DNA from: Apostichopus japonicus
Lineage: Eukaryota > Echinodermata > Holothuroidea > Aspidochirotida > Stichopodidae
NCBI RefSeq assembly: GCF_037975245.1
Contig: NC_092561.1
Coordinates: forward strand, 6,126,001-6,190,000
Direction of reading: 5' to 3'
DNA length: 64,000 nucleotides
The translations under genes were made by a program, and so were the position numbers. Below are positions 6,354 to 36,915 of this stretch, one piece after another (the stretch's first letter is position 1; each line of letters begins with the position of its first letter). The notes under the pieces are model-generated. The model saw only the letters and a program-made list of their open reading frames with translations. It had not been told where the DNA came from and ran no database searches.

Positions 6354-6456
<103 letters not shown>

Positions 6457-7216
6457 ATGAATGGATAGATGGATGAATCGGGGTTTGTAAAATAGCGTAT
6501 ATACAGAGATAATTACAAAACGGATACATATATCTGTCTCCCTAATGTTATGACACTCTTTACTTAGATCTAAGCTCTGTTCAACCTCACGTGCCAGCAG
6601 AGGAACATCGTTCAACACAAGACAAAGTGGGTATGTTCCACTTGTTGTTCGATGTCATATATTTGATAAACGAACATAGATTTTATCTCACCTTGTAAAA
6701 AAGCCATATGGAGACATTCATTTTTTTAGACGAACAACCCAAGATTATGCATTATGTTTCACCACCGCAACATTTAAATTGTATATCTCATTCGCCGTCG
6801 ATTCACTAAAATATACCCACTTTTGGAAATGATGGGGTCTGAGCACGTCTGACATGCACAAGCGCTGAAACCGACGCATTATGTCAATTCGTTTTCGCAT
6901 CGCATTTCCGCTATTGATTTAACGTAACTAGTCAATGCGTTGCATGTCCACGATATACGTGTGGTTCCAGGCCAGGTTGCAGGCGAAAGATATTAGAAAT
7001 TAGACTGATTGACACTGATGAAAACACTTGTCAGCAGTTGTTGTTTTAAAGATAATCCAAGAATGGTAAGACGTAGTCTAAAATTTGTTTTTCTTATGAT
7101 GACGATGAGTTCACCTGTTGGAACTTGGAAGTATCTAAATATAAGTTTGGTTGTATCCCCTTCCCCTATCCCTTCGTCTATGACTCTGACTGTAGAGTAG
7201 AGTAGCATAGGTCTAA

Positions 7217-7266
7217 GAGCATAGGCTTGTGTGTCAATAGCCTAGGTATCACACAAGCCTATGCTC
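7217..7266. repeat. perfect 17-bp-arm hairpin
   Basis: The arms GAGCATAGGCTTGTGTG (7217-7233) and its exact reverse complement (7250-7266) flank a 16-base loop. It lies about 630 bases upstream of the first SET-gene coding exon. It could be a foldback element end or an RNA hairpin; nothing else identifies it. Confidence 0.6.
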
Positions 7267-7890
7267 AGTCCTAAGCGTTTTCAGTGCCATTCCGCCATAG
7301 GAACGTACCGCCATAGCTGGATTCAATCCATTCCGCCATGTCGTCAACTCTCCTGGTTTTACCGGGAGACTCCCAGTTTTTACCTGAATCTCGATCCCGG
7401 TTTCATATTCTATTCTCCCGGTTTTTTAATTGTTTCATCACTTGCGACATTTCTGAAAAATACTGAAAGAGATGGTTTAACTTTCCATGATAGGTACAGT
7501 ATCTGATTAGTTCTTGTTTATGGATTGCAAAATCAGACTTTAAATGTATGTGTTGAAAATACTATACTAGGCCTTGGTCTTCATTTGTTTTTATTCAATA
7601 TTTTTCTAGAGACTGACTTCCAGTTTCATGGCCTAGCCTAACTCAAGTCTAAATTAAGTAGCTTAGTCCTACTACTAGGGTGCGTCGGCATAAGCAAAAA
7701 AAACTTCCGGTATACCCGATGACGAATACCGGTGTGCTGTATTCTGTGCCTCCCCTAATACTGTTGATCAAATTTGACTTTTTTTACTCATTCTTTGACC
7801 AATTCAGACAGTCACGTAAACACTAATGGCCTTGTAGAAATGACCTAAATGTTGCCACTGGTGTTAGAACTTGTTTTTATTTTCCTTTAG

Positions 7891-10800
7891 ATGAGTCGAA
7901 GGAGAAGAACAGGAAAATCAGAGGAGGAGAGAGCTGTCGATGCCTGTCTTAAAGGAGAAGACACTGAAGGGTTCCGATTGGGATTCATAGATGAGTTCAT
8001 AGGTACAATTTTTAATTTTTTTCATCTTTGTGAAGCATTTACAATTATTTGAAAGATGCACAGAACAGCAGATGTCACATATCATCGGTTTGAACTTTCC
8101 TAGATAGTTGAGCATGGGAGAAGTTATCTATGCTGGTGACAGATTGCAAGAAAACGAATTTTAATTCATCATGACATGTATTACTGTACTTTTGATTCCT
8201 TGCCAATTTGGAACAACTACAACTGTAGGAGTGACAGCTCAGTGGTAAGCGCATGTGCATTCTTTTACCAGGTACGTAATATATTTTGACTAAAAAAAAT
8301 TTAAAAATGTAAATTGTTAGCAAAACTAGTACTAGTGTATGTGCTTGAAAAGCTACACAAGTGCCAGCATTTGGCATCTGAGCACCTTCAAAAATTTCAC
8401 CACCTCCCCCAGGACGGCGTACCCGGCACTCAGCAAAAACCTGGGCACATCCCTGCATACATATATACAACTTCAGTCTGTGGCAAAGACAAGTAGTTCT
8501 GCTAGAGTGGCCCAAGGGTACTACATTTATTTATATGCAAGAACCTTCAAAAGTTGTGGCTTGGTAAAGTCACCAATAAATGATGTGAACAGGTTTTGTT
8601 TGCTTTAGTATAGGAATTGTAGTCTGTATATTACGATAAGCCTCCTTTAAAACAAAACAAAAATAGCAATGATGTACAATGGCTGCTGTGCTTAGGCTTT
8701 CCTGTCACATATAAACTAATGAATTGATATCAATATGATTTGCATTAAGTCTGGGAAAATGGAAGAAAAATATGGGTTTTCTGTGCAGTAATCATCAGTG
8801 GTAGTCAAAAACCTCACTATTCTCCCCTTTATATATATCTGAATCAGTTATATCAAGCTCATAATGGCCAATATTTAGGATGTTTCCTTTGATGTTTTTT
8901 CCTATATTTACAGCCCGGCACCTAGGATTACTGCCGAAGAGTACTGTAGAGTATTTATAGAACTTTGTAGATTACACCTCTTACTGTATACTAGCAATGC
9001 TTCAAATATATTACAGGCAAAAAAAATCATAAACCCCAAATTGCTAAACAATCTCTGAACACTTGACTTCTGAGCACTGAATTAAAGAATTATTTTCCAT
9101 GAAATGTGAAATCCTGTGGCCTACTTTAATGAGTAAGACTTACACATTGAACCCATATGTAAACTTTGCATTCAGTTGGTTGCGATGCCAACAAGTCCCT
9201 GTTCCTAGGAGAAAGAATTATAGTCTAGTGCAGGGTTTCCCTAACTTTACCCGCCCCCTCCCACAAACCCCTGTGGATGTCAGAGTTGTCCACGAACCCC
9301 CAACTTTTGGAGACACAATCTGATTCATTATTAATACGCATAACAGTGCTTCGTAAAAGATCAAGTTCATAGTATAATATTGTAGAGTTTGTCGATAGGT
9401 ACGACTTTTGTACATTACTAAATTATATCTATGATATATCAGATTTTAGTTCAACAAAAAGTACTCTAGTTTTGAATTTCAGAATCGTCTCAGGAACCCC
9501 CTTGGATATGGACTCACGCACACCATGGGGGTTCATGCACCCCAGTTAGGGAACCCCTGGTCTAGTGTGTTGGAACTCATACTGTACATGTGCAAAAAGT
9601 AATCATCACACTGACTTTGCTAAAATTGTGCAGTATTGATGTCGGCCTTGGATACATGTATCACTTAAAACGTACACCTTATGACCAGGATATACCACAA
9701 AATACAGTTGGAACACAAAACAGAACACATACTGTATGTCAAAGCATGGATGTTGACACCTTTTACGGCAAGAAATCACAATCAGTACTGGCATTCTGGT
9801 TAGTCTTGGCTTCCAAGCATCATTTTTTTTTCTCATTTCTTTACCCAGGCTCCGGTGTCTTTTGTGAGAAACGATTCAAGAAGGGAGACTTTCTTTTGGA
9901 ATATAGAGGAGAACTAATTTCTCAAGAAGAAGGGGAACATAGAGAAGCCAATTATCCAGAAGAAGTAGGAAGTTTCCTTTATTTCTTTTGTCATAATGGG
10001 AAAACAAAATGGTGAGTTGTAAATTTATACTAGTTATTTAACTTGTTTTACATTTAAATTGTATTAGGACAATATTGAAGTCTACTCATTGTAGACAGTA
10101 TTGTAATTGAAAGTTGTTCATCTGCATACTCAGTTAAAAAAAAAAAATTTTTCACTAGCATACAGACACATGTATACAAACCAGTGTTGTAGCTACGTAG
10201 GTCGGACTTGGCCAGCACTAACGTTTGCTGACCGGTACTCCAAGTAAAAAGATCTAATACCGACTGTCCCTCGAACTTCTGATCGACCGGTACAAAATTC
10301 AGTAAATAGTGTCACAAATGACTGTTAAAGAAATCACTCTCACTCAAAACTGATTTGATCTTTGGAAAAATAATAAAAATAACGATAGCAGAAGGTCACT
10401 GTGCTGTTCGAATGCAACTATAAACAAACTGAATAACTGAATATCTCTACTCAGTACGTTACAGTAGCTCTATCTTGAATACAAATTACGCGAACGTGTG
10501 TGTGGCATACAATTGTTGTATTACTCGAATCGCTCTGTCGACGTCTTCTGATTTTACACACTTTGTCAATGAGACATCGCCATTGACTTAACTACATGTG
10601 AGAACTCAGAATATTTTGTGGCAGTTCTATAATGTTCAACCTACTGTACACTAGTGTGGAACTAAAAACAGGTTATGTTACAAATATAGATTGAATTGAT
10701 ACCCTCAAAATAGAGGAAATGTCATTACCCATCACCTCGGCAGACTGAATGCAAAAGAAAACAATGTTGAGACCTTGCAATTAATCGATCAACTTATCAA

Positions 10801-13800
10801 GGACTTATCCTAGATTGATCAAAAAGGATTGAAGTGTTTGCAAAACATCTGTTTCTTCTACAGGCAAAATGATTCTCTGTTGTAGAGGTTATCACTTAAT
10901 ATTCAACTGACAATATGATAATCGGTTATTACCGATTAGCTCATGTGACAATCTGGCCGATTACCGATAATTGCATCATTTTAGTGAGACTGGCCTAATA
11001 TATGATTAAGTGTTATGCATGATTACCAACTTCTAGGCCAAAACAATCAAAGATGCAATGAACAACTTACACTAAAGCAAATAAAGAACACTGTAATACA
11101 TACATGGGGCGCTGTATGTTCATAACGATGAGTCGCAATATTGCAATCCCACCACAACACAGTAAATGGCAGTGCTGTACAGACAACAGAAGGGGGAAAA
11201 TAGTAGCCATTGGCTACAAAATGAAAAAAAAAGTTAGGCCAGCTTTTACAAAGTATTATAGCCATGATCAGTATTGCAACTCCAACGTAAATAAAGTGAA
11301 AAGTAGATCGAACGGTTATAAAATTTTCGTAATTTCGTAATATGTTATCGAAATATATAATCTGATATGAAAAATAAAACAATACCGAACATTTGCTTCA
11401 AGTTTTCCATGATTACCATCTGCGAGGGAATACTTTGATGGAACGTTGTTTCAAACGATTAAACACAGTAAGTCAATGGCGCTTCTCCATTGACTTAACT
11501 ACATGTGAAAGAAATCACAGACTTAAGTCCCATTGACTTTGTCGCACGTGTCGCTGGATATTAAACTTGCTTTAGTGGGTTGCGGGAGTTCAGGTACTGA
11601 AAGGGGTTATATTAGCATGTATGGTACATGCGGTCAGGGGAAAAAATTGTGTTAATATGGGTAAAAAAAATGCGTAAGTGTGTTTGCCTAATCACAAAAT
11701 ACTGTAATGCAGTAGAACTACTGAGAACATTACGGCGTCCCCCTAAGCTTATTGCGGGTATACTGTATGATGTTAACTGCCAAAACTGGATAGTATATGG
11801 AAGAGCATTAGTACAATCTCCCATGAGGGACTTGCGATACCGTTACCTTCCCCTGCTTTCAGTAGCATTGAATGGAATGATCTACATTCTTTTCCCGTTG
11901 TGGTTGTGGTGAATCAAAAGAGCGGAAAAATACAATCCTTTATGTGGGGAACGTAATAATTGGTTCCGCATAATCGGTAGCGCATTGGATTTTGCCAATG
12001 CCGATTATTTACAGATTGTCTGATAATCGGCCCGATGCCGATTATGTAACCGATTATCAGTCGAACACTAGTTTAATATCACATACAGCATGTGCTGGTT
12101 TTGTAGGCTAACTTACCTGCTGTATATGGTACATATCATACAGGATTAGTTGGAATACCACATACTGTTTAATTTACAAATAATCCAGTCTTACTAATAT
12201 TCTTAGCAATGCCAAGGACACTGTTCCCTCGGGGGGGGGGGGGATCCTACAAAGGTTTTGATCTTTGACCTATTCTCAAAAACCATCTTGTCACACCAAC
12301 TTCAGTTATCATTTCAGGTTTCTGTCAAGATTAGCAGTAATACTAAAAGCATAATCCTATCAAATGTGTATTCACTGTTTTGACATCTAATAGATCTCAG
12401 GGCACATTTGATCTGTCATGTTTGTAAAATAATTGAGTGACATAACTTAAAGGAGAAGCAGAGAGGGAAAGGTTTTCATATTTTACAACTCTGTGTGAAT
12501 ATAGATCATGTTTAAAGTACTCTCCAATAATGAGATAGGTGTGACACCTTGACAAAGTTACAACAAAATTTGTTCACAGCAGGCGGTACCTATTCAGTTG
12601 AACTTGACAGGTACAATTATGTTCTACAAAGCTCTAATTTCAGCATCCAGTTCCATTATCTTGTCTCATAATATCGCCATTGTGGATTTTCATGAACTCA
12701 GGAGCAGAGATGCCTTAAATAATCTTAACTGACCCATTATTTTTTTTCCATTTTTGAAGCATCGATGCTACAGATTCGTGTGGAAATGGAAGGATGGTTA
12801 ACGATGGTACAAACATGGCAAACTGCAAGATGAGGATTGTTTCTTTGGAAGGAGTGCCAAAACTGTGCCTCTTTGCATTGAAAGATATAGAAAAGGGAAG
12901 CGAGCTGAGGTGTGACTATGGCGTCAGTGATCTACCATGGAGGAAGAGGGTATGTTGTTGGTACATTTGTTTTAGACATGAGAACCGTAAACGGTACAAT
13001 CTTACACTTGGAAATTTCTAACACAAATCACATATATAGAGTTTGTGATCATTTGATATATTTGGGAGACAGTAATATATTGCACTAATGCTGTAGAAAC
13101 TTGCTCTATGTAGATACACTTTGGTTGGCTACATTAGGGAGACGAACAGTATAATCAAACTGATTTTTAAGAAACTTTTCTTGCAAAACCTAGTTGCTAT
13201 ATTGGTAAAGTTGTTGATTTTGCTAAAAAATGATACCTGATTTCACTTCTAAGTGGAACAATGCTTACACTTGGAATTTTCTCTATTTAACACAAATAAT
13301 ATATATGTATGTGATAAATAGATATATATAGGAGACACTGAATATATGTTGTACTAATGCTATACAACTCAGCTATATACACTTTGGTTGGCTACATTAG
13401 GGAGATTTAGAATTATACTGACTTTAAGAATGTTACCTGCATTATAACCCAGTTGCTATTTTAGAAAAAAAATTGAATTAGATAGAAAATGATACTTCTA
13501 TTGAAGATATAGAGATACTTTAAAATGAAACATTGTGATGAAAACTTGTGCACTGATGTAAACATACATTTTGAATTTAAACTGTATTAATAATATAGTG
13601 ATAAGAATATATGCAATTAACTAATGTGTACATTATTTCATGTTGCATAACAAATCAATAAAATCTCTGTAGGGTAGATCTGCACTATTTGGTATTGGTG
13701 TATTAAAATACTAAGTTGTTATCTGACAAATTTGACCAGAATTTACTATACCATTAAACTCTGCATCTCATTCCAGGAGCAGATACAGATGGAAACAAAC

Positions 13801-16800
13801 AAAGTTCCACAAGAATCTTCCTCAGAACAGTCGGTATGTATGAAATATCTTTTTACTAAGGGTTTTTTTTCAGAGTATAGAAGATTTTAATGAAATGTAA
13901 GCATGTTACATTTTAAAGACCATCAATCAGTTTGACCAGTGCCAGTAAGCCTCTTTGAAAAACCATGGCTTCTATGGTAAGAAGACAATAGTTGATTAAT
14001 GATTAATAAACGTATGACCAGCTGAGGAGGTGGGATATCAAAATAAGGTTGCTTAACTGTGCTCTTGCTATTATAAGTTCTAGGTAAGGTATCTGGCCAG
14101 ATTGTCCAACCTGGACTGTGCCGTCTGACTGTGCATCCTACAGTACACACACACTTCCATAAGGCACAATTGGTAGACATGCAATCAGACCAATAATATT
14201 GAGATGTTTATATATTAGGGAGACATAGAATCAAACTGATTTATTGTTTGTGTTGGGTTGTGTGTGGGTGTGTTGGCCAGTTTGTAAACATGATATCTCA
14301 GTAACTTAAACATGGACAGATACCATGATTTGTACAGTATATGAATGCCATATATTGCACAAAATAAGCCTTTTAGTTTGAGGTCAAAGGTCTGTGGGGT
14401 CAGTGAATATTGATAAAAAAAAAATGATATTTTCAAGAAGGGAAAATTAAACAAAATTATATTTGGTATGGGAGGTAATTGTAAGCATCATGCCTTACAT
14501 AAATTCCTTTAGAGTTGTGACATGTTATGTGAATGGGAGTTAACTGTACTGTTTGAACCTTTAATGTGTTGGTGCGTTATGACTTAAAACTTTTGTTTTG
14601 TTTACTTTCGTCTTTTCTATTTGTATCAAGGTATGTTATGTCTAACCTTTAATGGTTTAGCAGTAGTAAATTACTGTTGACGTTCTCATTGTGATAAATA
14701 TGGATAAGCAATCAAACATTGGGATGACATGTCTCTTAAGAACACTTGATCCATTAAATATCCTAATGTTTTTCAGGAAAAAGCCAAGAACCTTACACAT
14801 TACCCTGAAGAAAATAGGGACAGTAGTGAGGTCTTCCAACAGCTGTCTGAAGCATCTACTTCAAAGACTATTAACAAAGAGGCAAACATCATTGCTGGTG
14901 AATCGAAACAACCACCAAGGTACAAGAAACCTTCAAGAAAGTGTCCATTTTGTGGGAAGTATTACCAAGAAAAACTAACCAGACACATCAAGCTTGTCCA
15001 CAAGGATGAAGAACAGGTTAAAAGGGCCCTTGAACTACCCCAAAGGAAAAGGGAGAAAACTTTTGCCTTGATGAGGAAAGAAGGAATCTTACAAGCCAAC
15101 CAATTACAGATGAAAGTCGACAACCCAAAATATGAAGTGGAAAGGAGGACTGCCACTGAAAACCCTTTGGTCATCTGTGGCTTGTGTAAGGGGTTTTATT
15201 CCACTAGATTCTTCTTTAGACACAAGGCCATTTGTCAAGGAGATAGCTGTTTGCAGGCAAGTCCAGTCCCTGTATCCTTGATGACACCTGAGTTAAGAGT
15301 GAATCAGAATATCTCTGAAGTGGAAAGAAGGACTGCCACGAAAACCCCTTTGGGGTTTATTACTGAGGAACATGAAAATGAAAACTCGAGCCGCGAAAGT
15401 GACAAAGCGCAAAGAAGGTCTCATGCCAAAAAAGGGAAGCAAAAGAGGATGCTAAAACTGCCACAACACAAAAGGCTGATGTCATTAAGGTGTGCAACTC
15501 GGGAACGTGTGTCAGGTAGTTGTGAGTCAGATGATAGGGACAGTAGTGAGGTCTTTGAAAAGCTATCTTCTTCAAAGACTGTTAACAAAGAGGCAAATGG
15601 CATTGCTGGAAATTCGAAACAACCACCAAGGTTCAAGAAACCTACAAGAAAGTGTCCCTTTTGTGGGATCTATTGCAAAAAAAAACTAACAAGACACCTC
15701 AAGCTTGTCCATAAGGATGAAGAACAGGTTAAAAGGGCCCTTGAACTACCCAAACAGGAAATGGAGGAAACTTTTGCCTTGATTAGGAAAGAAGAAATCC
15801 TACATGCCAACAAATTACTGATGAAAGTCGACAACCCAAAATATGAAGTGGAAAAGAGGACTGCCACGAAAACTTCTTTGGGGTTTATTACTGAGGATCA
15901 TGAAAATGAATACTCTAGCTGCAAAAGTGACAAAACACAAAGAAGGTCTCATGCCAAAAAAGGGAAGCGAAAGACGATGCTAAAACTGCCACAACACAAA
16001 AGGCTGTTGTCATTAAGGTGTACTACTCGGGAACGTGTGTCAGGTAGTTGTGGGTCAGATGGTAGGGACAGTAGTGAGGTCTTCCAACATCTCTCTGAAG
16101 CATCTTCTTCAAAGACTGTTAACAAAGAGGCAAACGGCATTGCTGGAAATTCGAAACAACCACCAAGGTACAAGAAACCTTCAAGAAAGTGTCCATTTTG
16201 TGGGAAGTATTACAAAGAAAAACTAACTAGACACATCAAGCTTGTCCATAAGGATGAAGAACAAGTTAAAAGGGCCCTTGAACTACCCAAACAGGAAATG
16301 GAGGAAACTTTTGCCTTGATGAGGAAAGAAGGAATCTTACATGCCAACCAATTACAGATGAAAGTCGACAACCCAAAATATGAAGTGGAAAGGAGGGTTG
16401 CCACTGAAAACCCTTTGGTCATCTGTGGCTTGTGTAAGGGGTTTTATTCCACTAGATTCTTCACAAGACACAAGGCCATTTGTCAAGGAGATAGCTGTTT
16501 GCAAGCATGTTCAGTCCCTGTATCCTTGGTCACGCCTGAGTGTAGACTGAATCGGAATATCTCTGAATTTCAGCGTGACATACTCCATCGATTCAGAGAG
16601 GATGAAGTCAGTGAAGTCTGTCGCAGTGATCCTGTTATTGTTGACATAGGAAAGAGATTGTGGGATGCAAGCAGAAACAAAGAGGATATCAAGAAGACCG
16701 AAGTTCGAAAATGTGTCATGTCCGATATGAGGCGGCTGGCTTCTTTGTACCGGTGCTTCAAAGAGCAACACGAGATACATGGCACAGGACCCCTGGAAAG

Positions 16801-19800
16801 AGGTACTGCAAGAGACATGTTTCAGAGCGGAAACTTTTACTGTTTGACAGAGGCAATTTCATCATATTCAGGAGAAGGTAATGAACTCAAGCCAGGCCTG
16901 AAGATTGGACTCTTCTACTTGTTGAAGAAATCTTGTAAAATAGTAAAGGCCACCCATTTGGTTGAAGGACAAAACGCATCTGCAGAAGAGATAGACCAGT
17001 TTGTTGCCATTTTGGAACTAAACCACAATTATTTATTTGGTGATGCAAAACACCAAATAGACCAAAGCAGGAAAGCCAATCTCAGAAATCCAGCAGCCTT
17101 ACCCCTCGAGGAAGATGTTAAGAAGCTGCAGAACTACATATCAACAGTGATAACCACCATGATGGAAAATGATGTCATTGTTTGGGACTCATACAACTTT
17201 AAGAAGTTACGAGACGTGGTGGTAGCAAGGCTTACTTTATTTAATGCAAAACATTGTGGTGAACCCTGTAGGCTGTCCATTGAAGAATGGAAGGAGGCCA
17301 TGGCAGATGCATGGATTGACGAGACACAAGCTGATGCAATTTCTGATCCAATTGAGGAACACATGCTCACAAAGTTGAAAGTCACTTACCAGACAGTCAG
17401 AGGAAACAACCGTCTTGTTCCTGTCCTTTTCCCAGATGATTGCATACAGGCAATTGAGGTTCTGACAAGCTCGGCAGCAAGGTCTTCAGCAGGTGTGTTG
17501 GCGAGCAATGGATATGTGTTTCCTCGCATCCAATCATCACCTAATCATGTCATGGGTTGGCATGCACTTAGTGGCATTTGTCACGATGCAGAGGTGTCGA
17601 GCAAAACCAGACTGACTGCTACAAGAAACCGACATCACATCAGTACTTTATATGCATCAATGGATGTACCGGCGTCTGAACGAGCGTCGTACCTTAAACA
17701 TATGGGATACTCGACCGACGTCAGCGAGAATATAGACGAAGCACCACCTGCTGTTAAGGAAGTCGTTGAGGTTGGGCAGCCACAACAGATTGATGCAGGT
17801 TTGAATAATCTATAATTTAATTACTATTAATGTCGTCACTTGTAGTGTTTGCATGGGTTATCCGGGTACCTACCTGAATCCTACGCAAAGTGTGATATTT
17901 TTTGTTTTTGTTTTGCAAACTGACGGTTAGGCAGATTTCTCATTGACTTAGTGTGGTGTTAGGCTACCATGTGGTCGAAGAAACAGCAATAACAATAGTA
18001 TTCCATGGATATTTTTATAACTGCCTCACAATTTTAGCTAATAAACAGATGGCTAGGCTAGATTACCCCATTGACTTAGTCTGGTGTTAGGCAACCATGT
18101 GGTCAATTGAACAGCAATAATGAAATTATTCCATGGATATCTTATAACTGCGTCACAATTTCAGTGAGTAAACAGATGGTTAGTCTTAGCTAGATTTCTC
18201 ATTGACTTAGTGTGGTGTTAGGCTACCATGTGGAAGAAATTGAAAGAATTCTCACAATTATTATTTATTCATTCCTTTATTTCATAGAAGGGAAAGCTGA
18301 CAAGGAATTTTACGAGATGTTAATGGATTATAGACGGGATAACTAAGAAATAATAATCGCAAGTGGCTTTTTACATTATTCATCTAATCATTATTCCAAA
18401 TGCGATCAAATTTAGCGAATCGCACAATCTAGCGGCTAATGCGAACCCTTGGCCTGCATAATAGATAGTAGTAGTAACAACTGTTTAAGAGCTAAATTTG
18501 ATACTTATATGGTCTGATCCAATAGACGTGGAGAGCAAGCATAAGCATCGGCAGCAGTGTGATGTTAGTAGTGATAATAATTATATGAAGTTATTAACAA
18601 GTTAATGAATGAAACAAAAACAAATAGAAATTATTGAGGAAGGTTTTATACCTTATCTTACAAACATGTACGTATTTGAACATGAAAACATTGTCAGTAA
18701 AGAATATAATTCATTTATTATAGCATCCAATATGAAATTTCTTGAAAATCGTGATACACGAGGGTAAACAATTTTTTTGTCCGGGTACCCGGATACCCGA
18801 TGGGTAATGGCTCTCGGGTACCCGGTTCCCGATTGTTGGACCTGTGTAAACACTATAGTCATTTGTATCCTCAGTATCAATGAAAAGTCATTGAAGTTTT
18901 ATAAATTACAACCGATCCATTACAGATTGTCTTCGGTCTATATAAGCTTGACTTTCATTACAGTTGTCAAATTTTTATTGTCGTTCGTGTATTACGATTA
19001 TTATTATTACCGATGTGTTAATATTTGATATCATTGGTAGGTCATGATGACTGCTTACTAGAGACCAGGAACCAGGCAGTGGATGACGCTGATCCGGACG
19101 TCTCAGGTATGATACATATTACACTGTCACCATATTACAAGCAGGGGGGTAGGGAGCTTCCAAAAAGTGGGGGGCACAACATCAGAGGGGCACTTTCTCA
19201 TTCCACAACCACCACTCGTTATGCTATAAACCGATACACACCGGCTGTATCGCTTAAATATATATGATGTGTAAGTATGCTATCAATACTATTATGGTGC
19301 ACGTGAATAATTTAAAAAAAATTATAAATTAACAAAGGCTTAAGATTTCCAAAAGACAGTTCTTCATCAAAGGGGCACATTTTATTTGCCAGTAGGGCAC
19401 ATTTGTTATTTTGGTAAACAAGTGGGGTGGGGGGGGGGCACGTTCCCCCGGTACCCCCTCCCCTTCCCTTGCTCCTACCCCCCTGACTTACAAGCAACAC
19501 TATATTAAGACAATGACATCAGACATACCATCGGTGGAAGTTTTCAAACTTAAAGACAAAAATGAAGACAGATGTTACGTCATCTAATATTATACACAAA
19601 GTGCTGAGGAGAAACTTTCATATTACACAACAAGTGTTGAACTCTCATGGAGACAGACATCCTATATCAGGTTCGTATATAGTAGTTTTACTTAAATATT
19701 GTATCAGAAATGTTGTGTATAATCACAGAATCTACAGGTCTCTAACTCTTTTTAGGAGTATGGAAGAAACGCGCACTATTGACACTGCCATGAAATAGAT

Positions 19801-22567
19801 GGTGTCGTAGAAATTGTGAGGTCTAGTTAATAATGTTAGCATAGATGTGAAAAGAAGAATACCATACTTTCTATTTACCAGTTTTGTGGTATGTGTGTTG
19901 TACCGTGCAGTTAAGGTTCTATACAAAATTTGGAGATAAAATGTCAACATTTTGAGATAAGTAGTCAAAATTTGGAGATTTTAGGACATTTATTATTTTG
20001 TTTTACTATGTCCCTATTAATCCAATGAATAGTTAAGGATTTGCCTGCTCTAATGTTTGTAATTTTATTTATTTTATTTCACAGGGCCTAGTGCTGTTGA
20101 GCATCATGAAGTCAACGAGTGTGACAAAGGCACAGGTACAGAAATTTTGCTCCAGCCCCCTCATGGGAGGATCTTTAGCTTAGCGTAGAACTTTGAAGAA
20201 TGCTTCCGACTAAATGGTCCACACATCAAATCTCGATTATCATAAACCTTCACGTCTTTGGTTATTTTACCTTCCTTGGCCCTTGATTTCATGTCTTTGA
20301 CAGCCAGCTTATCCAGTATATTGTTTCAGCAATTAAATGATAACGTGACCCTTTTGCATATGACCTTCTTCAAAACTTTCATGAGTAGTGCAAAGTAAAT
20401 GTTATATTTTTGTAGTACTTAATGTAATGTGATGTTAAACTGTAAAGTGTCACATTTGATTCTTGAACCAAACAGAAAATCCTGATAGAACGGCGTACTT
20501 TGCAGCGAAACCATTAATTTAAAAAAATATTGTTATGCTCAATTCAATATAAAGGCTTTCCGTATGATCCATTAGCAGTAGTCTGCACATCTTTGTGACC
20601 TTGAACTAACTTACCGTTACATTTGGTGATCATTATTTCTGTGTGATTTGGACGCAAATGTTTTGATTCAAACGTTATAATTGTGAGGGTTCAACCTTTT
20701 TTGTGACCTGTGTGAGTGTAAAGTTTGAAATGCCTTCAAAGAAACTTTACTTGATCTTTGAAGCAATGAGGCTTAGCAATTGGGAGGTTCCGGGTTCAGT
20801 ACCTGACCGGGTCCTAGTAAGGTGGGCTTTTCATCGACGAGCAATCTACGGTTTTCCCATCTGAATTGACCTCTCGAAACTTCAAAAGATTCCAAATTTG
20901 AGTTAAACTGTTGAATTGGAAGCCACCGGACATGTAAGTTGTAATGCTTAAGACCTTGTGGGTTTGTCCCACATTTGTGGTCGCTTAAGCGCTGTAAAAA
21001 TAACTGCTGATTATGATTATGATAACTTTATATTTCATGCAGCTAAGAAAAGGAAGTGTTCAGAAGAAGTGAAAGCAGGACAGGAAAAAAAGAGTGAGTA
21101 TAGATATATGGTATGAAGATGGGAAAGAATGGCATGTAGTGTTGTAAGGAACACAACTGTTTCCAACCCAGGCTTGCTTTTGTGCGTACTGTAACTAAAT
21201 TCATCTTATAGATATGCAAAGCAAACATGTATAAAGTAGTAACATCCCTGAATGCCTAGTAATATGCGTGAAATTATAGATTTTACAACAGTTCCTAATT
21301 GACAAAACAGTATCCAGCAGTTGTTACCTTTTACAACCACGCATTTTTGCTAGTAGGAAGATCCAAGGTGCACTTTCATGGTCGGTAGAATTGTATGAAA
21401 CATACATTTATCTTGCAACTTATACCATGAATGGAAGCCTTCCAAATGTTTTATTTCAGTATTAATACATTACAGGGGTGTTGACAGATACACACAGATC
21501 AAATTGAATGTGATTGACTGTTTGACATATTAACTGGATAGGAACTGGAAATTATGAAGAATTTGACCAATCCCATTTGGTGGAATGTATAAACCTTTGG
21601 GAGGAGTTAAGATGGCATCTCTGTGGCTTCAAAAACTTCACTATACTTTGTCTCCTATCCAGTTAGTGTATTGATCAATGGATTGTTTCAACCAAAACAT
21701 TCATTCAGTTTCAACCTTAGCTCTTCATGGTTCCTCACTAGATCCACTTGAACAAACTGCTTCCAGAGTTTTTTTCTCAGTTAAAGGCATTCTCTCAGCT
21801 AGGAAATTTTTAGAGGGCGGGCCAATTTCATAGGTTTCGATGGTACACCGTTACTCCACTTTCTGACTTGCTCATGTGATAAGGTATTTGTAATATACTA
21901 CCACATTCTTTCCTATCCAATTCCTGTTAGGTCTGATAAAGTAGGTTGTATAAGGTTTTACATGTATATTTTTTTATTGCAGCACGAACATACACCAAGT
22001 GGACAGAAAGCGACACAAAATTAGTGAAGGAACATTTTCACAGTATAATCACTGACCATACAGCAAAGACAATTCCAAGTAAGTGTTACAGTAGGTGTTA
22101 GACGATGGGTTACAAAACTAAAATTGAATTTCATGGCATACATAGTTGAACTTGCATCATTTATGTCCTTCGTATAAAAATATAGGTCTAAATGAGGCTG
22201 CCAGCATGCAAATGAGTTATTATCATGCCATTAGACGCCGAATGCGTCCCACGCAAATTATTTCTACTAGATACTTCTTTAATTATTTGGAAAGGTAACA
22301 AGACAAGAACTTCCTTTGTCTGGAAGAGTTTGGCAAATACAGATGAGAACACTTTAAAAGCTACATAAATAATTTTTCTTAATCTGTATTTTTTTTCTTT
22401 ATACTTCCACAGATAAAACTGAAGTCGAGGGATTTATGAAAGTGACGAAACTTTCACGCCCATACCCTTGGCAGACTGTACGGACTAAGGTGATGAATGA
22501 GAGAGAGAAGTGGAAGAAGAGATTCACTGGAAGAATGCAAGCAATGATTGAAGGCCAATTACTTTAA
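7891..22567 (+). CDS. SET-domain / zinc-finger / recombinase-like / SANT-like fusion protein (about 1,320 aa)
   Basis: Ten exons join in frame with AG/GT borders and matching phases: 7891-8002, 9849-10011, 12760-12949, 13777-13833, 14777-17798, 19041-19106, 20085-20135, 21043-21093, 21983-22078 and 22413-22567 (stop TAA). The lengths sum to 3,963 nt. Order of parts: basic N-terminus; KMT5A-like SET domain (residues about 38-152); linker; alternating C2H2 and C2HC fingers (about 230-745); a region from about 773 to 1170 resembling the catalytic domain of tyrosine recombinases; then lysine-rich and acidic linkers; and a C-terminal SANT/Myb-like piece (about 1240-1320) with W-T-E-S-D and P-W-Q-T-V-R-T-K-V. 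SET proteins of this class mono-methylate lysine on histone H4 or other proteins. A recombinase-like plus SANT-like tail suggests a domesticated transposase part for DNA or chromatin binding, which is inference. An upstream non-coding exon is likely because the ATG follows directly on an acceptor. Confidence 0.85.
8003..9848 (+). other. intron 1 of SET fusion gene
   Basis: A 1.85-kb intron with donor AG|GTACAA and acceptor TTTACCCAG. It holds one complete hAT-like MITE (9231-9559). Near 8370-8454 there is a CG-rich stretch whose end (minus strand CAGGGATGTGCCCAGG) resembles a hAT terminus without a visible partner. Short frames inside are not genes. Confidence 0.6.
9231..9559. mobile_element. 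hAT-like MITE with 8-bp target duplication
   Basis: It begins CAGGGTTTCCCTAAC and ends GTTAGGGAACCCCTG, imperfect terminal inverted repeats of the hAT type. It is flanked on both sides by the identical 8-mer GTCTAGTG (9223-9230 and 9560-9567). At 329 bp it has no transposase. It sits in intron 1 of the SET gene. Confidence 0.9.
9849..12949 (+). other. SET domain exons of the fusion gene
   Basis: Exons 9849-10011 and 12760-12949 encode the SET fold, preceded by residues of exon 7891-8002. Visible family landmarks: G-S-G-V-F, K-K-G-D-F-L-L-E-Y-R-G-E-L (the SET start of KMT5A-like enzymes), then C-I-D-A-T-D, G-R-M-V-N-D, G-V-P-K-L-C-L-F-A-L-K-D-I and G-S-E-L-R-C-D-Y-G. KMT5A-like enzymes normally have N-H-S at the methyl-donor site and Y-D-Y-G at the catalytic end. 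Here these read N-D-G and C-D-Y-G, so the asparagine and the second tyrosine remain but the histidine and first tyrosine are changed. Activity is therefore uncertain. The intron between the two exons is 2.75 kb and holds a large inverted-repeat element. Confidence 0.8.
10905..12072. mobile_element. inverted-repeat DNA element with repeated AATCGG motifs
   Basis: The left end (about 10905-10975) carries ACTGACAATATGATAATCGG, ACCGATTA and CCGATTACCGATAAT. The right end (about 11965-12072) carries the reverse-complementary GGCCCGATGCCGATTATG, ACCGATTATCAGTCGAACAC and further CCGATTAT motifs. The two ends form imperfect inverted repeats with the sub-terminal AATCGG word repeated. The interior of about 1 kb encodes nothing recognisable. 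No clear target duplication is seen. It lies in intron 2 of the SET gene. Confidence 0.5.
13010..13510. repeat. degenerate tandem duplication in intron 3
   Basis: Two diverged copies of about 240 bp each carry TACACTTTGGTTGGCTACAT followed by TAGGGAGA, at about 13117 and 13378. Matching flanking words are ACACAAAT, GGGAGACA or GGAGACAC, and AGTTGCTAT. It is an old local duplication within the intron between exons 12760-12949 and 13777-13833. Confidence 0.6.
14777..16560 (+). other. tandemly duplicated C2H2/C2HC zinc-finger array inside exon 5
   Basis: Three near-identical blocks start with the same bases (GGGACAGTAGTGAGGTCTT) at 14818, 15537 and 16066. Each encodes K-C-P-F-C-G-x-Y...L-T-R-H-x-K-L-V-H, a C-X2-C-X10-H-X4-H finger, starting at residues about 230, 467 and 646. 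Each is followed by a charged helix (DEEQVKRALELPK). Blocks 1 and 3 also carry I-C-G-L-C-K-G-F-Y-S-T-R-F-F...H-K-A-I-C (C2HC, residues about 308 and 724). Block 2 has instead a basic G-F-I-T-E-x-H-E-N-E segment. The blocks differ by few bases over hundreds, so the duplication is recent. Spacings are 719 and 529 bases. Confidence 0.85.
16570..17798 (+). other. tyrosine-recombinase-like domain, probably catalytically dead
   Basis: After the last finger the exon encodes about 400 residues: a helical N-terminal part (G-K-R-L-W-D-A-S-R-N, R-R-L-A-S-L-Y) and a C-terminal part with the order expected of a phage-integrase/Crypton-type catalytic domain. This is an arginine in V-V-A-R-L-T-L-F-N-A (residue about 992), T-R-N-R-H-H-I-S-T-L-Y (about 1126) and K-H-M-G-Y-S (about 1149), then E-N-I-D-E-A-P-P (about 1161), where related sequences carry the nucleophilic tyrosine. 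The tyrosine is Asp here, and His is missing from both the HxxR and L-G-H positions. I recognise related domains joined to SANT-like tails in fish and invertebrate proteins from memory. No structure or search was run. Confidence 0.55.
17935..18240. repeat. tandem repeat, about 130-bp unit, three copies
   Basis: The phrase CATTGACTTAGTGTGGTGTT with AGGCTACCATGTGG recurs at about 17941, 18069 and 18201 with small changes. Between copies come ATTCCATGGATAT, ATAACTGC and AAACAGATGG. The array lies at the start of the intron after exon 5. Confidence 0.85.
18776..18836. repeat. GGGTACCC-rich palindromic cluster
   Basis: The stretch contains CCGGGTACCCGGATACCC and, 20 bases on, TCGGGTACCCGGTTCCCG. 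Each half is self-complementary around GGTACC. A related CCGGGTACCTACCTGAA occurs at about 17859. It is intronic with no coding content. Confidence 0.5.
19142..19485 (+). mobile_element. hAT-like MITE, CAGGGGGGTAGG family, copy 1
   Basis: It starts CAGGGGGGTAGGGAGCTT and ends GCTCCTACCCCCCTG. TTACAAG flanks it at 19135-19141 and 19488-19494, consistent with an 8-bp hAT duplication with small changes. Inside are runs of G and phrases such as AAAGACAGTTCTTCATCAAA shared with the copy at 30678-31088. It is non-autonomous and lies in the intron between exons 6 and 7 of the SET gene. Confidence 0.8.
20765..21035 (+). repeat. tRNA-derived SINE
   Basis: A polymerase-III type head is visible: A-box-like TTAGCAATTGGGAGG, then B-box-like GGGTTCAGTACCTG. 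The body ends TAAGCGCTGTAAAAATAA followed by a TTATGATTATGAT tail. The head, body and short tail fit a SINE inserted on the plus strand in the intron before exon 21043-21093. Confidence 0.6.
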
Positions 22568-23236
22568 TTGCTTCAATCAGCTTATTCTTTTCTTTAGCCA
22601 TTGTAAAGTAATTGTAACATTAAGATATAATTTTTGTTTTATTTTTTTATTCTCAATGTAGTGTTAGTTTGCCAGTGGAAAAGGGCAGAGACGTGTTTTT
22701 TTTGTTGTTGATTTGTTCTGCTCTTTTCACTATGATTATAGGAAAGCATTGTAATCATTCTTTTGTGTTGTTTGTTCTAAACATATTAACCTCTGAAAGA
22801 ATCAAGTACCCTGAAGCAATAGTATGTCTCGAACAAACAACAAAAGAATGATTACAATGCTTTCCTATAATATATTTGCAAGTTGTGTGCAGCTCTAAAG
22901 TTGCTATATCATGCTGCGATTCAGCATTAGGAAGGGGTTTTGATGCCATTTTTTTTACCAAAGTAAGAGCTGTTAGAGCTGTTAAGGTGTTATACTTTAA
23001 TTATAATATAAAGTTCTAACACCGAACAAATTTCAGGGTTGTAGCTTTTTCTCAATATTAATTTATGAAGTTGTTAAGTTGCTCCAATGTTGGAAAAATC
23101 TTATTATTTTTCTGGAAGAGATATAGTACCACCCTGAAAAGAAAAATCCTCAAAGTTTGGCATTGAAAAAAAAAAAAAAACGTTTCTGCCTGTTTTGATG
23201 TTCCACATGTTTTTAGCCTGGGTATTGTACTTCAAG
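22568..23236. other. 3' flank of SET gene, no further gene
   Basis: After the TAA at 22567 the sequence is AT-rich 3'UTR and spacer. No clear AATAAA was picked out close to the stop. It contains a foldback hairpin (22735-22873) and a piece (TCTCAATGTAGTGTTAGT..., about 22650-22720) repeated near 29020-29095 on the other side of the retrotransposon. Confidence 0.5.
22735..22873. repeat. foldback hairpin, about 43-bp arms
   Basis: The left arm (22735-22778) and right arm (22831-22873) are reverse complements over about 43 bases, apart from a 2-base bulge (GT). Core words are ATTATAGGAAAGCATTG and AATCATTCTTTTG. The loop is about 52 bases. There is no terminal signature of a known superfamily. 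It would form a stable hairpin in the 3'UTR if transcribed. Confidence 0.75.
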
Positions 23237-28620: not shown

Positions 28621-29133
28621 TATCTTTTCAACAATTCGTTTTGAGTTATTGGCTGTCAAATATATACTTAATTCTTTTTATCATTTATCAGTCCAAAGTG
28701 TTCAAGACATAACTTGCCAATAACACTATTGCAATAGGCATTTGCCAGTTTTAAGTTGCAAAGGTGTGTCATAGTTTGTAGCCAGTAGATATAGTGTCTA
28801 TATTTTATCATTTATTCTTTTTATCATTTATACTTTATTCTTTATACCTTATACTTTAAGTCCAAGAAGAAGAGGTCCACAGAAAGGATGGATAAGCAAT
28901 GAGTTGATATTGCTTGAATCCCATTTATTCATTTCTTAGGGACATTGTGAAGGAGTATTAACATGTTATTCCCAAGAGAAATTCAGATACAGTTTTGTTT
29001 GAATCAGCACTGTGTTATATTTCTCAATGTAGTGTTAGTATGCCAGCAGTGGAGAAGAAGCAGAAATGTGTTCATTGTCGTTTGATTCATTGCTGTTTAT
29101 TTTCTGTATATGTTCGTATATATGTTTATGACA

Positions 29134-29450
29134 GAGCGTGGTGGCCAATAGGCTAAGGCGTCGGACTCGTGATCCAAGGATTGCTGGTTCGATTCTTGCC
29201 TAGTTCATTACGTTGTGTCCTTGGGCAAGATGCTTTATCTCACTTGCCTCTCTCCACCCAGGGGTTCAATGGGTACCTGTGAGGTAACTTGTCATTGGGC
29301 GCAGTATATAACTGCTGCCGACTGGAGGGATTGTCTCTGGGACAGGTTATCATTGACCAGGGGTAGTATAACGTCTGTAAAGCGCTTTGAGACCTATCGT
29401 TGGTATAAAGCGCTATATAAAAAGCAAATATTATTATTAAATATATTATT
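29134..29450 (+). repeat. tRNA-derived SINE
   Basis: The head folds like a tRNA: A box GTGGCCAATAGGCTAAGGC, an anticodon-like loop, and B box GGTTCGATTCT. The body follows with TTGGGCAAGATGCTTTATCT and ACTTGCCTC. The tail is GTAAAGCGCTTTGAGACCTA, GCGCTATATAAA and an ATT-rich run. The short frame across it is not a gene. Confidence 0.85.
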
Positions 29451-30677
29451 CTAATACTAATCTTGATTTTAACCTTTTACTCAACTTGTGTCATCTTCAT
29501 TATTGACCAATCGGTCAGAACTCCATTTGTCGTAAGTAACTTTCATATGTAATTGTTTCAGTATATGCTTTATTCCATAGTGTTTCATAAGTTTCACATT
29601 AGACCATTATTTTATTTTTAATTCTATACAATTTAGTTCGCAAAGTGGAGAAAACCGATACTTCAGATGAACATTAGATGGAGCTTACTCACACTTTTGC
29701 TGAAGCTACAGCTCTAACTGTAATACTGATTCTTCTGATACTTCAGATGAACTTAGGGGAGGCTTACTCATTATTTAAAGTGATTTTGGTTTGTTTTTAC
29801 ATTCTGTCCAACCACTTTTGCTAATTAGCTACAGCTCTAAACGTAATACTGATTGCATTTGCTATTATTTTTTAGTGAATATTCTGTCTTTTACCCGGAT
29901 GATTTTATCCAAGAATCTTTGTACTTTCAGTCAAAAGAGTTCAAACAAAACTTGTCGATAAGAGCGTTTGTAAAAGGTATTTGCTTATTTAGTAATAATT
30001 GAACAAAAACAAATGGAATGTAAACTGCCTTAGACATTCAAGTAATTATCTTATCAGTGATGACTCAAACATGAGAGTAATCTGATATTGCAACAATAAA
30101 GAGACATAATCCTTACCCATGTGTGTGTAAATGCTAGTAAATAAGTTCGCTAACTTTTGTTTGTGGAAACTTGAGGCTCGTTTGGATATGCACCAACACT
30201 GATGATTGAGGATGGTCGGTTTTGAGTTCAAATCGTCAAAGCCCCTGATAAATCAATATTAGAACAAATGTGACCGTTCTATGGAATAACAATATGCTAG
30301 CAAAGTCCTGTTACTGTTCAGTAGTTGATAAGCATCATAATTTGCATTGCATCTAATTCACCGATTGACTAGTCACAATAAAAAAAAAAAGGCAAATCTA
30401 ATACATGTAGCTAAACTTCAAGAATGTGATCAAGCAATTTAGATTCCCGGTTCCGCTTACTTTTTAATAATCACAAAAATCTATTCGCGATAAATTTTGC
30501 AGGATTCCTCGTTTCCGAACAGTTCAATCTTCATAGTCATTCTCTCATAAACCTAAAATGTTTTTTTAATTGCCTCGAACTTCAAATCCGCTACGTAAAT
30601 GGATCTTTCGTATTAAGTCTCACATCACCGGCCTCCACGAAGACTTGGGACCCCTTAACAACTATTAGTTCTACAAT

Positions 30678-32849: not shown

Positions 32850-35800
32850 ATGGAAGGTTTGAAAGGTTCTTGGATGATGAAAATCCCTCGCGTTGTTCTA
32901 TTATTGGCTGTTTTGACGACCTCATCACATGGAATGGACTCGCTCGACCAACGCCCACGTAAGTAAACGGAAAGTAGACTTCACGAAGAAAACCTAAACT
33001 AAACCTAATTATGTGATTTTGAATATCGAATGGCATAAAAAATAAAATGGGATGAAAATCTACCAAAATAACGAATGGCATAAATTATATAATGGTATAA
33101 AATCTACCAAAATATCGTCACTTTAAGTTTGTGTGCTTCGCAACCAATGTTTGAATGTTTCCCTCTTTTATAAACATGCACATCACAGCATACAGAACAT
33201 ACAACACACACAGCGCATAAACAACACACACCGCGGCACACTAATCCACAACACACATACCCGCAGCTTTGCCCTATTTTTAAACTGGCAAGATCAAGTG
33301 ATCACTTGTAAATATTTCGACAGTATATATTACCTGACCAAAATTTAACCATGATCAAACATAACGTTGTGATGTATTGGCCTACTAAGTGACTCGTTAT
33401 ACTCTTTTCTTTTTACGCAATATCGTTATAACCATACGATTATAAACAGTCTCTATGTAAGGGGACTTGTTGGTCGAGAGTGGATCAAATTCAAGTTTGG
33501 CTTTCATTCACATGCCCTTTATATCCTAGATGACTTTTCTCGTAATAATAGTATCTTCTAATCTCAAGATTTCTGGGTTTTTCTATCACAAACAAACATT
33601 GTCCTAGGTCACGCAGTTTGACTAATTACACGATAGCTTAAACTTGCTTGAAATGACCTCGGGCAAGTGATTGCCAAATTAACCATGGATGCACTTGAGG
33701 CTATATTAAGAAAATATATACTAAATGCAGCTTAATTGTCTTCTTTCAAGAGAACGGGGTTTTTTTTTAATGAAAAAGAAAAGAAGGGAACGGTTTTAGT
33801 GTTAGGCATTAAATTCTAATATAGACTTACTCAATTTTTATCCAATTTATAAGTGCATATATAATCGATATTTTGGCAAATACCATTTGATATAAATTAT
33901 GTAACACATAGATTTGAATCATAAAATCTTATGCTCTTAGCGTCATTGAAAATGCAGTTTTTGAGAAAAAAAATCATTTAACAAAAAACAAGCAACGTGT
34001 TTTTGACAAATGATAAGTGGGATCTATACTGATATATCACAAGATTTATCATCACATGAATTAAAACCTGCTAAAAGGTAAGAACTTGTGCTAACTGTTT
34101 CTCACTTATACTTCTCTTATTATCCACAAAATCTAATGAATCTTTAATGTTGCATTGGGCCTATCTCAAGAGCATAATACCGTGGTGTTAAATTGCTTTT
34201 AGGTTATTAAATACTCTAATGGTTTTTAGATTATGATATTGCTGTAATGAAAGTTAATAGAACGTGCATATAACTATGACGTAGCCGACTGGTGACTCTA
34301 TTAGTGGTTCTCATGAATAATTATGTATGATGTGGTTTTAAAAATATTGAAAGTCGATTGTTCGAAGGCAGAAGAAGAATTATCTAAATTTATCTCACTA
34401 CACATTTTATAAGGATGTTTTTTTTTCTCCTTTTTTTTCGTGATGCTTTGACAATTAAAGTAAAAGACAATAAAAGGGGAAAACAAGTCAGCTCAACATT
34501 TTTTTTAACCATTCATCATATTAACTTCTTTTATCCCTTCCAGACTTTAATTGGACTGGCGAATATAACGATTTATTTAACCTTACAATTTGTCCTATAT
34601 ACCGTTGTGGCGGTCACAACAGAAGCCTTGAAGAGCCATATCATCTCTGCAAATGTGACGATGACTGTCTGTTTTATCATGATTGCTGTTGGGGATATAA
34701 TGGAAATTCCGTGACGCCGTCTCTTCATACTGCTTCAAATACAAAGGAAACCGACCAGTGCGCAATCGCATACCGCGCTAACGTTGGCACAACCGCCCCG
34801 GATGAGTGGAGCACCACAGCTGCGGGATATCGAATGGTCAGTACTTGTCCACCCGATGTACAGAATAGAACGCTTGTTCAACATTGTCAGGATACAGGTG
34901 ACGTCATTAACACACCACTGGACGTATGGCAAGGATACGCAGATCATCTGCCGGTGCAAGATGATAATACTGGGAAGACGTATAAAAACGTTCATTGCGC
35001 ATTTTGTAACTTTGTCAGATTTGAAGATATGCGCTTTTGGCAGTTAACCCTATCGATATTTTGTGATCGCAACCAACCACCTTTAAGATGTGGTAACTTC
35101 TTCTTTGAACCCATGAAATGTAACGACATGGCAGCCGTACCAAGAGGCTGTATCCACGTAGATGTTGAGTCGTGCCCGGAAACAGCCAATCTAACCATTA
35201 AGAATCTATGTGACTCCTACTTAGCTCCTTATGAGTTAAGCGGGCTCATTTTCCGGAACCCGCACTGTGCATTGTGTAATACGCACGGCCCCTTTCCTCC
35301 CTCTATCTCGTATTGCCCTTCCCTTGTTGTTCCAGTCAGTTGTTCGTCGAGAGGATTACCTCACACTATTCCGTTTAATTTCTCTTCATTTGGAAATCAG
35401 GCATTGCACAAACCGGTTATAGTCTGTGCTACTGGATTGACGTACAACGAAACAACAATGAGCTGCGAATTGTCTGAGAGTGATTTTGATAGATTTATTT
35501 GTGACAGATCTAATAACAACAACAATGGTGCAATGATTGAGATGGTTATCGGTAACGAAGATCGAAGTAGAACTACATCGGATGTAGAGGGCATCATTCT
35601 GACAATAAACAACACCTTTTTAACCTCCTCTCCTCGACTACAAACAGGCATCGTCTCTTGTGTTAAGGATAAGGACAACGCCATTATCACGTGTTCATCT
35701 ACGTCCCCTAATATATCTCAATTTGAAAATAATCTGGAACCTTTTATTAAGGAACTGCAACGAAGTGGAGGAATCGATGTAATACGTGCCGAGTTATTCA

Positions 35801-36852
35801 TTGTGTGTACCTCCTCATTTACATTGACTTCAAAGGGTTGCACAAAGCTTGGCATATTCGAAAACTCTGACGTCACACTGGCCTCAAAAGATCGCGACTA
35901 TTACGTAACAACTTTATCTGAAAATAGAATCTATACTAACGCTGAAGTTTTACGAAAATATTCAAGTTTTCGAACTTCAGACGAAACGGAAGATGATTTG
36001 CAATTTAACCTGCATATATCGATTTGTGAGTCATCTACGGAAGATCTGTTGTGCCCGTATACTTTTCTTTTGCAAGACGAATTCTCAGTTGCAAATGGCG
36101 AATTAATTCGGAAATCAAGAACAGAAATTTCCATATCGCAAAGGGAATATCTTTTGTCATCTGATGACCAGGTCAAAGTTTGTTTAGACCGGTTATCCGA
36201 ACCCTCCCCTCAAGACGATCTATTTCTTCTTTTAATATTTATCATCTTCACAACTCTTTCCCTCCTTGGCCTTGTCTTGACCTTTGTAAACTACTGCTTT
36301 TTGAAAGAACTTCGAAATCTCCCAGGCAAGTTAACAATGAACTTCATCGTTGCAACGTTTCTCGCGCAACTGCTACTCCTCGTTTCACCAGCAAACGAGG
36401 TCATGTGTACACTCGTTGCTATATTTGGTCATTTCATATGGCTATCCACCTTTATTTGGACAACCGTTATCGCTTTCAACGTAACTCAAACATTCAGCGG
36501 TACGTCGTCACTCCTCGTTGACGCATCTGTGACGTCACATCTAATTTTAAGAAATACCGTAATAGGGTGGATTTCTCCCGCTATGTTTGTAGGTATTTGC
36601 TTCGTTTTCCAAAGATCTGCAATTTTGGAAGAAAGGTTCGACTACGGTAAGGGCGAAACTTGCTGGCTAACTCCACCATTGGCCAACTTTCTATTGTTTG
36701 GAATTCCCGCCATTCTCTGCTTGACTTGCAACATCATTTTCTACGTGACGACCGTTCGTGGCATAAGGGATACAAAACGAACTTCACTTGTGGCTACCCA
36801 AACTGATGAGTCGACATTGGTTAAAGAAGAAATCGTTCTATTCTTGAAGGTA

Positions 36853-36915
<63 letters not shown>

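Follow-up and report, generated by a model that had tools for sequence, protein, structure and literature searches.

A sea cucumber gene joining a KMT5A-like SET domain to zinc fingers and a tyrosine-recombinase domain, and the probable transposon family to which it belongs

A 64,000-nucleotide stretch of the genome of the sea cucumber Apostichopus japonicus (contig NC_092561.1, positions 6,126,001 to 6,190,000; hereafter the window) contains a gene in which a histone-methyltransferase-type SET domain appears to share one reading frame with zinc fingers and a recombinase-like domain. This arrangement raises the question of whether the gene is a targeted chromatin modifier of the host or part of a mobile element that captured a SET domain, the two possibilities offered by the original prediction, which was made from the DNA sequence. 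The analysis described here indicates that the gene is very probably a copy belonging to a family of tyrosine-recombinase (YR) DNA transposons whose multi-exon gene, here called SET-YR, encodes a KMT5A-like SET domain, zinc fingers, a YR domain and a C-terminal tail. The window gene itself is best read as a recombination-dead copy of such a SET-carrying transposon, the coding sequence of which is still constrained.

Domain architecture of the SET-YR gene

Ten exons on the forward strand, spanning positions 7891 to 22567 and all delimited by splicing, yield a spliced sequence of 3,963 nt and 1,320 codons with a sole, terminal stop, and the nine introns all show GT-AG borders. From the N- to the C-terminus, the frame encodes the KMT5A-like SET domain, C2H2/C2HC fingers, the YR domain and a conserved tail. 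An annotated A. japonicus protein (P0001, 1,297 aa) matches this product with 97% identity over 100% of the query and agrees in frame from the SET domain to the tail; it differs in having one more upstream coding exon (7018–7065, forward strand, 16 codons followed by GTAAGA, as deduced from the P0001 N-terminus and the DNA) and in skipping exons 6 (19041–19106) and 7 (20085–20135). The ten-exon splice model, and with it the predicted single frame of about 1,320 codons, is thus confirmed at the sequence level by the DNA, P0001 and the relatives described below. SET-YR was the sole gene matched by tblastn (E ≤ 1e-3) within the window.

The SET region starts in exon 1 (7891–8002), and the domain occupies exons 2 (9849–10011) and 3 (12760–12949). 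It is recognized by Pfam (PF00856, E = 8e-17), and its 14 best solved relatives are all KMT5A/SETD8 structures (best E = 2.2e-26), in agreement with the KMT5A-like character originally assigned to it. Although KMT5A (PR-Set7) is its nearest SET kin by sequence, the SET domain of the window family is N-terminal, and in the window the alignment of exon 3 shows GRMVND in place of GRLINH and RCDYG in place of LYDYG. INH becomes VND, the first Tyr of YDYG becomes Cys, and the catalytic motifs NH and YDYG of KMT5A are represented by ND and CDYG, with the second Tyr retained. Among the 19 family SET sequences aligned, ND is present in 15 and NH in three (P0016, P0017 and P0026), with P0006 showing neither. 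The RCDYG Cys occurs in the window, P0001 and P0004, and P0002 carries RCYHG.

Exon 4 (13777–13833) leads to the large exon 5 (14777–17798), which, according to splicing and the structure model, encodes both the fingers and the YR domain. Fingers of the proposed C2H2/C2HC kinds can be read from the DNA of this exon, five in number: three of the type CxxC..H..H and two of the type CxxC..H..C. They belong to a block present in three copies with a DNA identity of 87–93%, the stretch 14815–15319 being 93% identical to 16063–16567. Units 1 and 3 each contain a C2H2 finger (14942–15001 and 16190–16249) and a C2HC finger (15176–15235 and 16424–16483); the middle unit retains its C2H2 finger (15653–15712) and lacks the second one. 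Downstream of exon 8 (21043–21093), exons 9 (21983–22078) and 10 (22413–22567, including the stop) encode the tail, which is common to 16 aligned sequences, the window included, with an invariant W and an invariant N. In the structure model of the relative P0027 the tail is helical, with three longer helices and one short one. The Myb/SANT-like end of the original prediction therefore survives as a conserved helical tail and not as a SANT domain, the likeness being a mere resemblance: searches of the tail against Pfam and PDB gave no convincing match, with nothing below E = 0.2 in the PDB profile search.

The recombinase-like domain had been placed at residues 773–1170, in agreement with the modelled stretch (approximately residues 749–1181; positions 16499–17797). 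The AlphaFold model of this stretch (mean predicted local distance difference test score, pLDDT, 86.7) displays the two-domain YR fold; model residues 42–411 mostly match solved YRs, and the 30 best structural matches are all named recombinases or integrases. Sequence profiles of the domain gave nothing significant against PDB, the best match being XerA (E = 0.26). Bacterial Xer, Cre and lambda integrases share the fold and have the same order of active-site residues as the SET-YR family. They differ in that the window YR is only about 10% identical to them in the structural alignment, forms part of a eukaryotic multi-exon gene and is inactive as judged by its residues.

At the family level, the six active-site positions (R..K..R..H..Y) are retained in 129 of 144 complete YR cores, from a collection of 157 that includes isoforms and one gene twice (the window gene and P0001) and of which 13 are without a letter in at least one of these positions. 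The window copy reads HRRHYD, so that four of the six positions are lost, and the same losses are found in one paralogue. The core alignment and the DNA place His at the Arg I position (17252–17254), Arg at the Lys position (17399–17401), Tyr at the His III position (17708–17710) and Asp at that of the nucleophilic Tyr (17735–17737); Arg II and the following His (17630–17635) are both retained. Judged by these residues, the window protein has the descent and fold of a YR and is not a working recombinase.

Protein searches, in which the candidates sharing most words were scored and one protein listing comprised the best 120 of 184, revealed relatives carrying both SET and YR in a crinoid, a sea urchin (Strongylocentrotus purpuratus P0010 and P0026), Hydra (P0007 and P0008) and oysters. 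In a tree of 40 of the 43 chosen sequences (P0020, P0134 and P0151, which have no core of the set length, being left out), the window gene groups with its paralogue P0002 (support 100) and then with Holothuria P0003 (support 99). The latter, the nearest relative outside the pair in this tree, has a full YR active site. As annotated, Hydra P0007 and P0008 also show a protein kinase domain ahead of SET, which may be a fusion or an annotation error. A viral source of the gene was rejected, as a scan of viral contigs gave 43 pattern matches with no relative among them.

Dispersal and mobility of the family

A search of the 671.6-Mb A. japonicus genome identified at least 91 YR and at least 150 SET matches, grouped into at least 78 YR loci on 19 contigs and at least 119 SET loci on 21; these are lower bounds, since scoring covered 87 of the 127 candidates for YR and 150 of the 338 for SET. 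Of the 78 YR loci, 49 are preceded by a same-strand SET match within 20 kb, and 54 within 35 kb. The controls were the other positions around the same loci, and not shuffled ones: same-strand downstream and both opposite-strand positions gave 0 of 78 within 20 kb and 1, 0 and 1 within 35 kb. The catalytically complete YR at 14.17 Mb of contig C9 is preceded by SET exons 1, 2 and 3 in order, and contig C17 holds two broken copies with SET exon 3 just upstream. The number of copies had been put forward as the means of distinguishing a domesticated gene (one locus) from a transposon (many). Many were found, and domestication of a single locus as the origin of the gene is rejected.

The clearest mobility is seen in a sister lineage that lacks SET. 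A unit that measures 17.3 kb on contig C16 (4.98 Mb), 16.8 kb on C7 (17.2 Mb) and 16.4 kb on C16 (31.95 Mb) is common to three of its copies, which are 99.0–99.6% identical over their longest aligned blocks and have an intact YR; outside the unit their flanks differ, and a (TA)n tract adjoins it at both ends. A fourth copy, on C12, is rearranged and 97–99% identical in blocks. From their sequences, these SET-less sister elements are plainly mobile. Near-identical copies with differing flanks and shared ends are the evidence of mobility for this lineage (elements A–C), and copy number and dispersal that for the SET-YR loci. Apart from the YR gene, the two stretches of element A that were listed contain no open reading frame (ORF) of at least 150 aa. 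The protein of the mobile SET-less lineage (P0027; loci L003–L006) has a proline-rich N-terminal part where SET would be, and N-terminal modules may be swapped within the YR family.

The ends of these elements carry a common motif. The sister copy in which they were counted contains eleven GGAGACA or TGTCTCC boxes, present at both ends and with eight of the eleven lying within 300 bp of an end, and the left end of the sister elements reads GGAGACA-N6-TGTCTCC. The same sequence stands at the left boundary of the unit of the window's paralogue. In the window, a candidate recombinase site with one mismatch, GGATACA-N6-TGTCTCC (6522–6541, forward strand), lies 67 bp inside a (TA)n tract (6356–6454) that probably represents the target of insertion and the outer limit of the element, as the sister elements suggest. 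Genome-wide there are ten exact GGAGACA-N6-TGTCTCC sites, compared with seven for a reversed control pattern. Eight of the ten are located 27–83 bp from a (TA)n tract, five in copies of a first family and three in copies, 98–99% identical, of another element, and those away from such a tract are the paralogue's and one on C23. Positions no more than 100 bp from such a tract account for 3.3% of the window and 0.8% of thirteen other stretches. That other element (L043–L045, at C4:15.93 Mb, C16:18.04 Mb and C17:33.97 Mb), with copies 98–99% identical over the ends fetched, is likewise dispersed and carries the motif at a distance of about 60 bp from (TA)n; it has no YR match in its neighbourhood and is perhaps non-autonomous.

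In working copies of the family, the fingers and YR domain would bind the terminal GGAGACA boxes, with the YR breaking and resealing DNA at GGAGACA-N6-TGTCTCC and integration taking place beside (TA)n as the target. The SET domain could meanwhile modify histones at the element or at its target, thereby marking nearby nucleosomes.

Another YR group, more distantly related (about 24% identity), comprises many equal-scoring copies. Five of them are 98.5–99.99% identical over 16.7–20 kb among the pairs listed, with SET matches 23–32 kb upstream; the 99.99% identical pair, on C16, may be an assembly duplication. In this high-copy group, a 204-bp tandem array follows the YR gene at L032 (7293–9999). 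Furthermore, 17 of the 78 YR loci are found between about 6.5 and 30 Mb of contig C17, many of them broken by stops, as if copies were piling up and decaying there. This stretch might be a region of low recombination or sex linkage (cf. PMC9128100); in a candidate sex region of A. japonicus, kmt5a-a and kmt5a-b are described as male-biased (PMC9128100).

Fate of the window copy and rival explanations

The paralogue of the window gene is located on the reverse strand of contig C1 (5.52–5.53 Mb), about 0.6 Mb away. Homology between the two covers the gene and much of its introns (approximately 6502–22728) and resumes, in two aligned blocks, at 28866–29953 (forward strand). At the break, between approximate edges 22729 and 28865, the window contains a BEL/Pao-type retrotransposon ORF stretch on the reverse strand, with pieces encoding DUF1759, an aspartic protease, a reverse transcriptase, an integrase and DUF5641 between 23633 and 28031. 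Since both copies carry the same active-site losses, these losses predate the duplication or have spread between the copies; the YR active site of the window copy would accordingly have been lost before it split from its paralogue. The coding sequence shows purifying selection after the loss of the transposition residues. In this one pair, with small counts, the ratio of nonsynonymous to synonymous substitution rates (dN/dS) is 0.49 for YR (95% interval 0.32–0.80; fraction of bootstraps at or above 1, 0.003) and 0.31 for the SET exons (0.13–0.79; 0.008). For the fingers it is 0.71, with an interval that includes 1, and among the finger repeats inside the window it is 0.6–0.8; the YR of the sister elements gives 0.04–0.05. 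Such selection on a copy with a dead YR allows domestication and does not prove it.

Several observations weigh against our interpretation of the gene as a copy of a SET-carrying transposon under continued constraint. The right end of the window unit was looked for and not found, and with the left end alone in hand its boundaries are half inferred. The dN/dS values of the window rest on few changes in one pair, and the paralogue is decaying, with a stop in exon 10. A plain Foldseek search of the window YR model against PDB gave no match at E ≤ 0.001, and the YR stretch has no Pfam hit. The HxxR motif carries the tetrad His of YRs, and in this family that His appears to be Thr, the spacing being read by eye. 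At the genomic level, a SET match is missing from the 35 kb upstream of 24 of the 78 YR loci and also of the best-proven mobile copies (58% identical). The match to SET exon 3 at C9:14.17 Mb includes one TAG, possibly intronic, just as that of the window includes one TGA. As for the element ends, the raw number of GGAGACA-N6-TGTCTCC sites is not enriched over the reversed control, only their placement being so; the eight sites near (TA)n stem from copies of only two families; and the motif came to light by inspection and had not been predicted, so that its proximity to (TA)n is not a blind test.

Two alternatives would dispense with a SET-carrying transposon altogether. That the gene is an annotation chimera of two neighbouring genes is barely conceivable and was rejected: SET exon 3 is separated from exon 5 by 1.8 kb and joined to it by one 57-nt exon, and gene models are predictions, yet the same order is repeated in crinoid, urchin, Hydra and oyster proteins and at the 49 YR loci with a same-strand upstream SET match. 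It is also improbable that the SET-YR genes represent a normal family of host chromatin regulators that grew by gene duplication. The multi-exon structure, the report that such genes are expressed in Hydractinia and urchin embryos (PMC10368294) and the purifying selection in the window copy would fit a host family; however, the dispersal over 19 (YR) and 21 (SET) contigs, the near-identical sister-lineage copies with unrelated flanks and common ends adjoining (TA)n, and the largely invariant recombinase active site argue against it.

For the window copy itself, function and decay are close to even. It may have become a domesticated, targeted chromatin regulator comparable to the Crypton-derived DUF3504 genes, a possibility to which we give somewhat less than an even chance: its frame remains open over 3,963 nt despite the loss of four of six YR positions, both SET and YR have evolved with dN/dS below 1 after the duplication, and the annotated protein bears an isoform name. 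The dead-YR pair, however, was seen in one species only, its paralogue is decaying, and SET differs from KMT5A in the NH motif and in the first Tyr of YDYG; moreover, because the active site of Holothuria P0003 is intact, any domestication looks recent and not deeply conserved. With the same, slightly lesser than even, chance the gene is a slowly decaying transposon copy without function, as the active-site loss, the internal repeats, the BEL/Pao insertion downstream and the decay of the paralogue would suggest, against which stand the open frame and its constraint. If the window copy is functional, its likeliest product is a non-cutting DNA-binding SET protein, which could still occupy element ends and act there as a repressor or regulator. 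The SET–finger–YR fusion of the original prediction and its membership in a SET-carrying mobile family of many copies hold, and the window copy, with its YR active site lost and its coding sequence under purifying selection, may or may not encode a working targeted chromatin modifier.

Relation to Cryptons and to KMT5A expansions

Animal Cryptons are the nearest named elements to the SET-YR family. Like it, Cryptons are eukaryotic DNA transposons encoding a YR (PMC3212892), and Kojima and Jurka (2011, PMC3212892) list examples from sea urchin, a mollusc and a cnidarian. The window family differs in combining SET, fingers and tail in one protein, and the sister elements differ in their terminal GGAGACA boxes and (TA)n on both sides, whereas neither terminal repeats nor a C-terminal domain are reported for animal Cryptons in the text available (PMC3212892). 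The main text of that paper contains neither "SET domain" nor "methyltransferase". Domesticated Crypton copies, the DUF3504 genes, have lost active-site residues (PMC3212892) and would, by analogy, provide the nearest parallel for the window copy; DUF3504 was not matched in the Pfam scan of the window protein.

Expanded sets of KMT5A/SETD8-like genes have been described in Hydractinia (65), Hydra (24) and S. purpuratus (61), and interpreted as predicted H4K20 methyltransferases; in Hydractinia and urchin the SET domain is mostly N-terminal, and a C-terminal part is common to both (PMC10368294). The main text of that study mentions no recombinase, integrase or Crypton; further domains are shown in its figures and tables. 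Because Hydra P0007 and P0008 and S. purpuratus P0010 and P0026 carry SET together with YR, the published expansions of Hydractinia, Hydra and sea urchin are probably explained by the SET-YR element, to judge from these sequences. In the literature surveyed by titles and abstract openings, neither a SET-carrying YR element nor a link between such elements and KMT5A expansions was found. In the available parts of PMC9406493 and PMC10380595, which hold "SET domain", "Crypton" and "tyrosine recombinase", Cryptons are treated in general terms and "KMT5A" does not appear, and those of PMC5240408 and PMC12153100 draw no link between SET/KMT5A and YR elements. For comparison, Capitella teleta has three kmt5a paralogues (PMC12153100).

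A histone-methylase domain and a recombinase within one transposon protein would tie mobile DNA to the writing of chromatin marks in a direct and testable way. The combination also gives a specific answer to the question of why "KMT5A" genes number in the dozens in some animals, with many of them activated at about the time of genome activation together with transposon-related RNA, and serves as a warning that multiplied "KMT5A" genes may be transposons and not host regulators. We tentatively suggest, as a proposal rather more likely to fail than to hold in full, that unrecognised, animal-wide YR transposons use their own KMT5A-like SET domain to prepare or protect chromatin for transposition, that the KMT5A expansions of hydrozoans and sea urchins represent their amplification, and that some dead copies, including that of the window, serve as sequence-targeted chromatin regulators.

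Elsewhere in the window, three long ORFs (34525–36930 and 59797–62232 on the forward strand, and 42962–45412 on the reverse strand) resemble, by eye, related receptors with a cysteine-rich ectodomain and seven helices.
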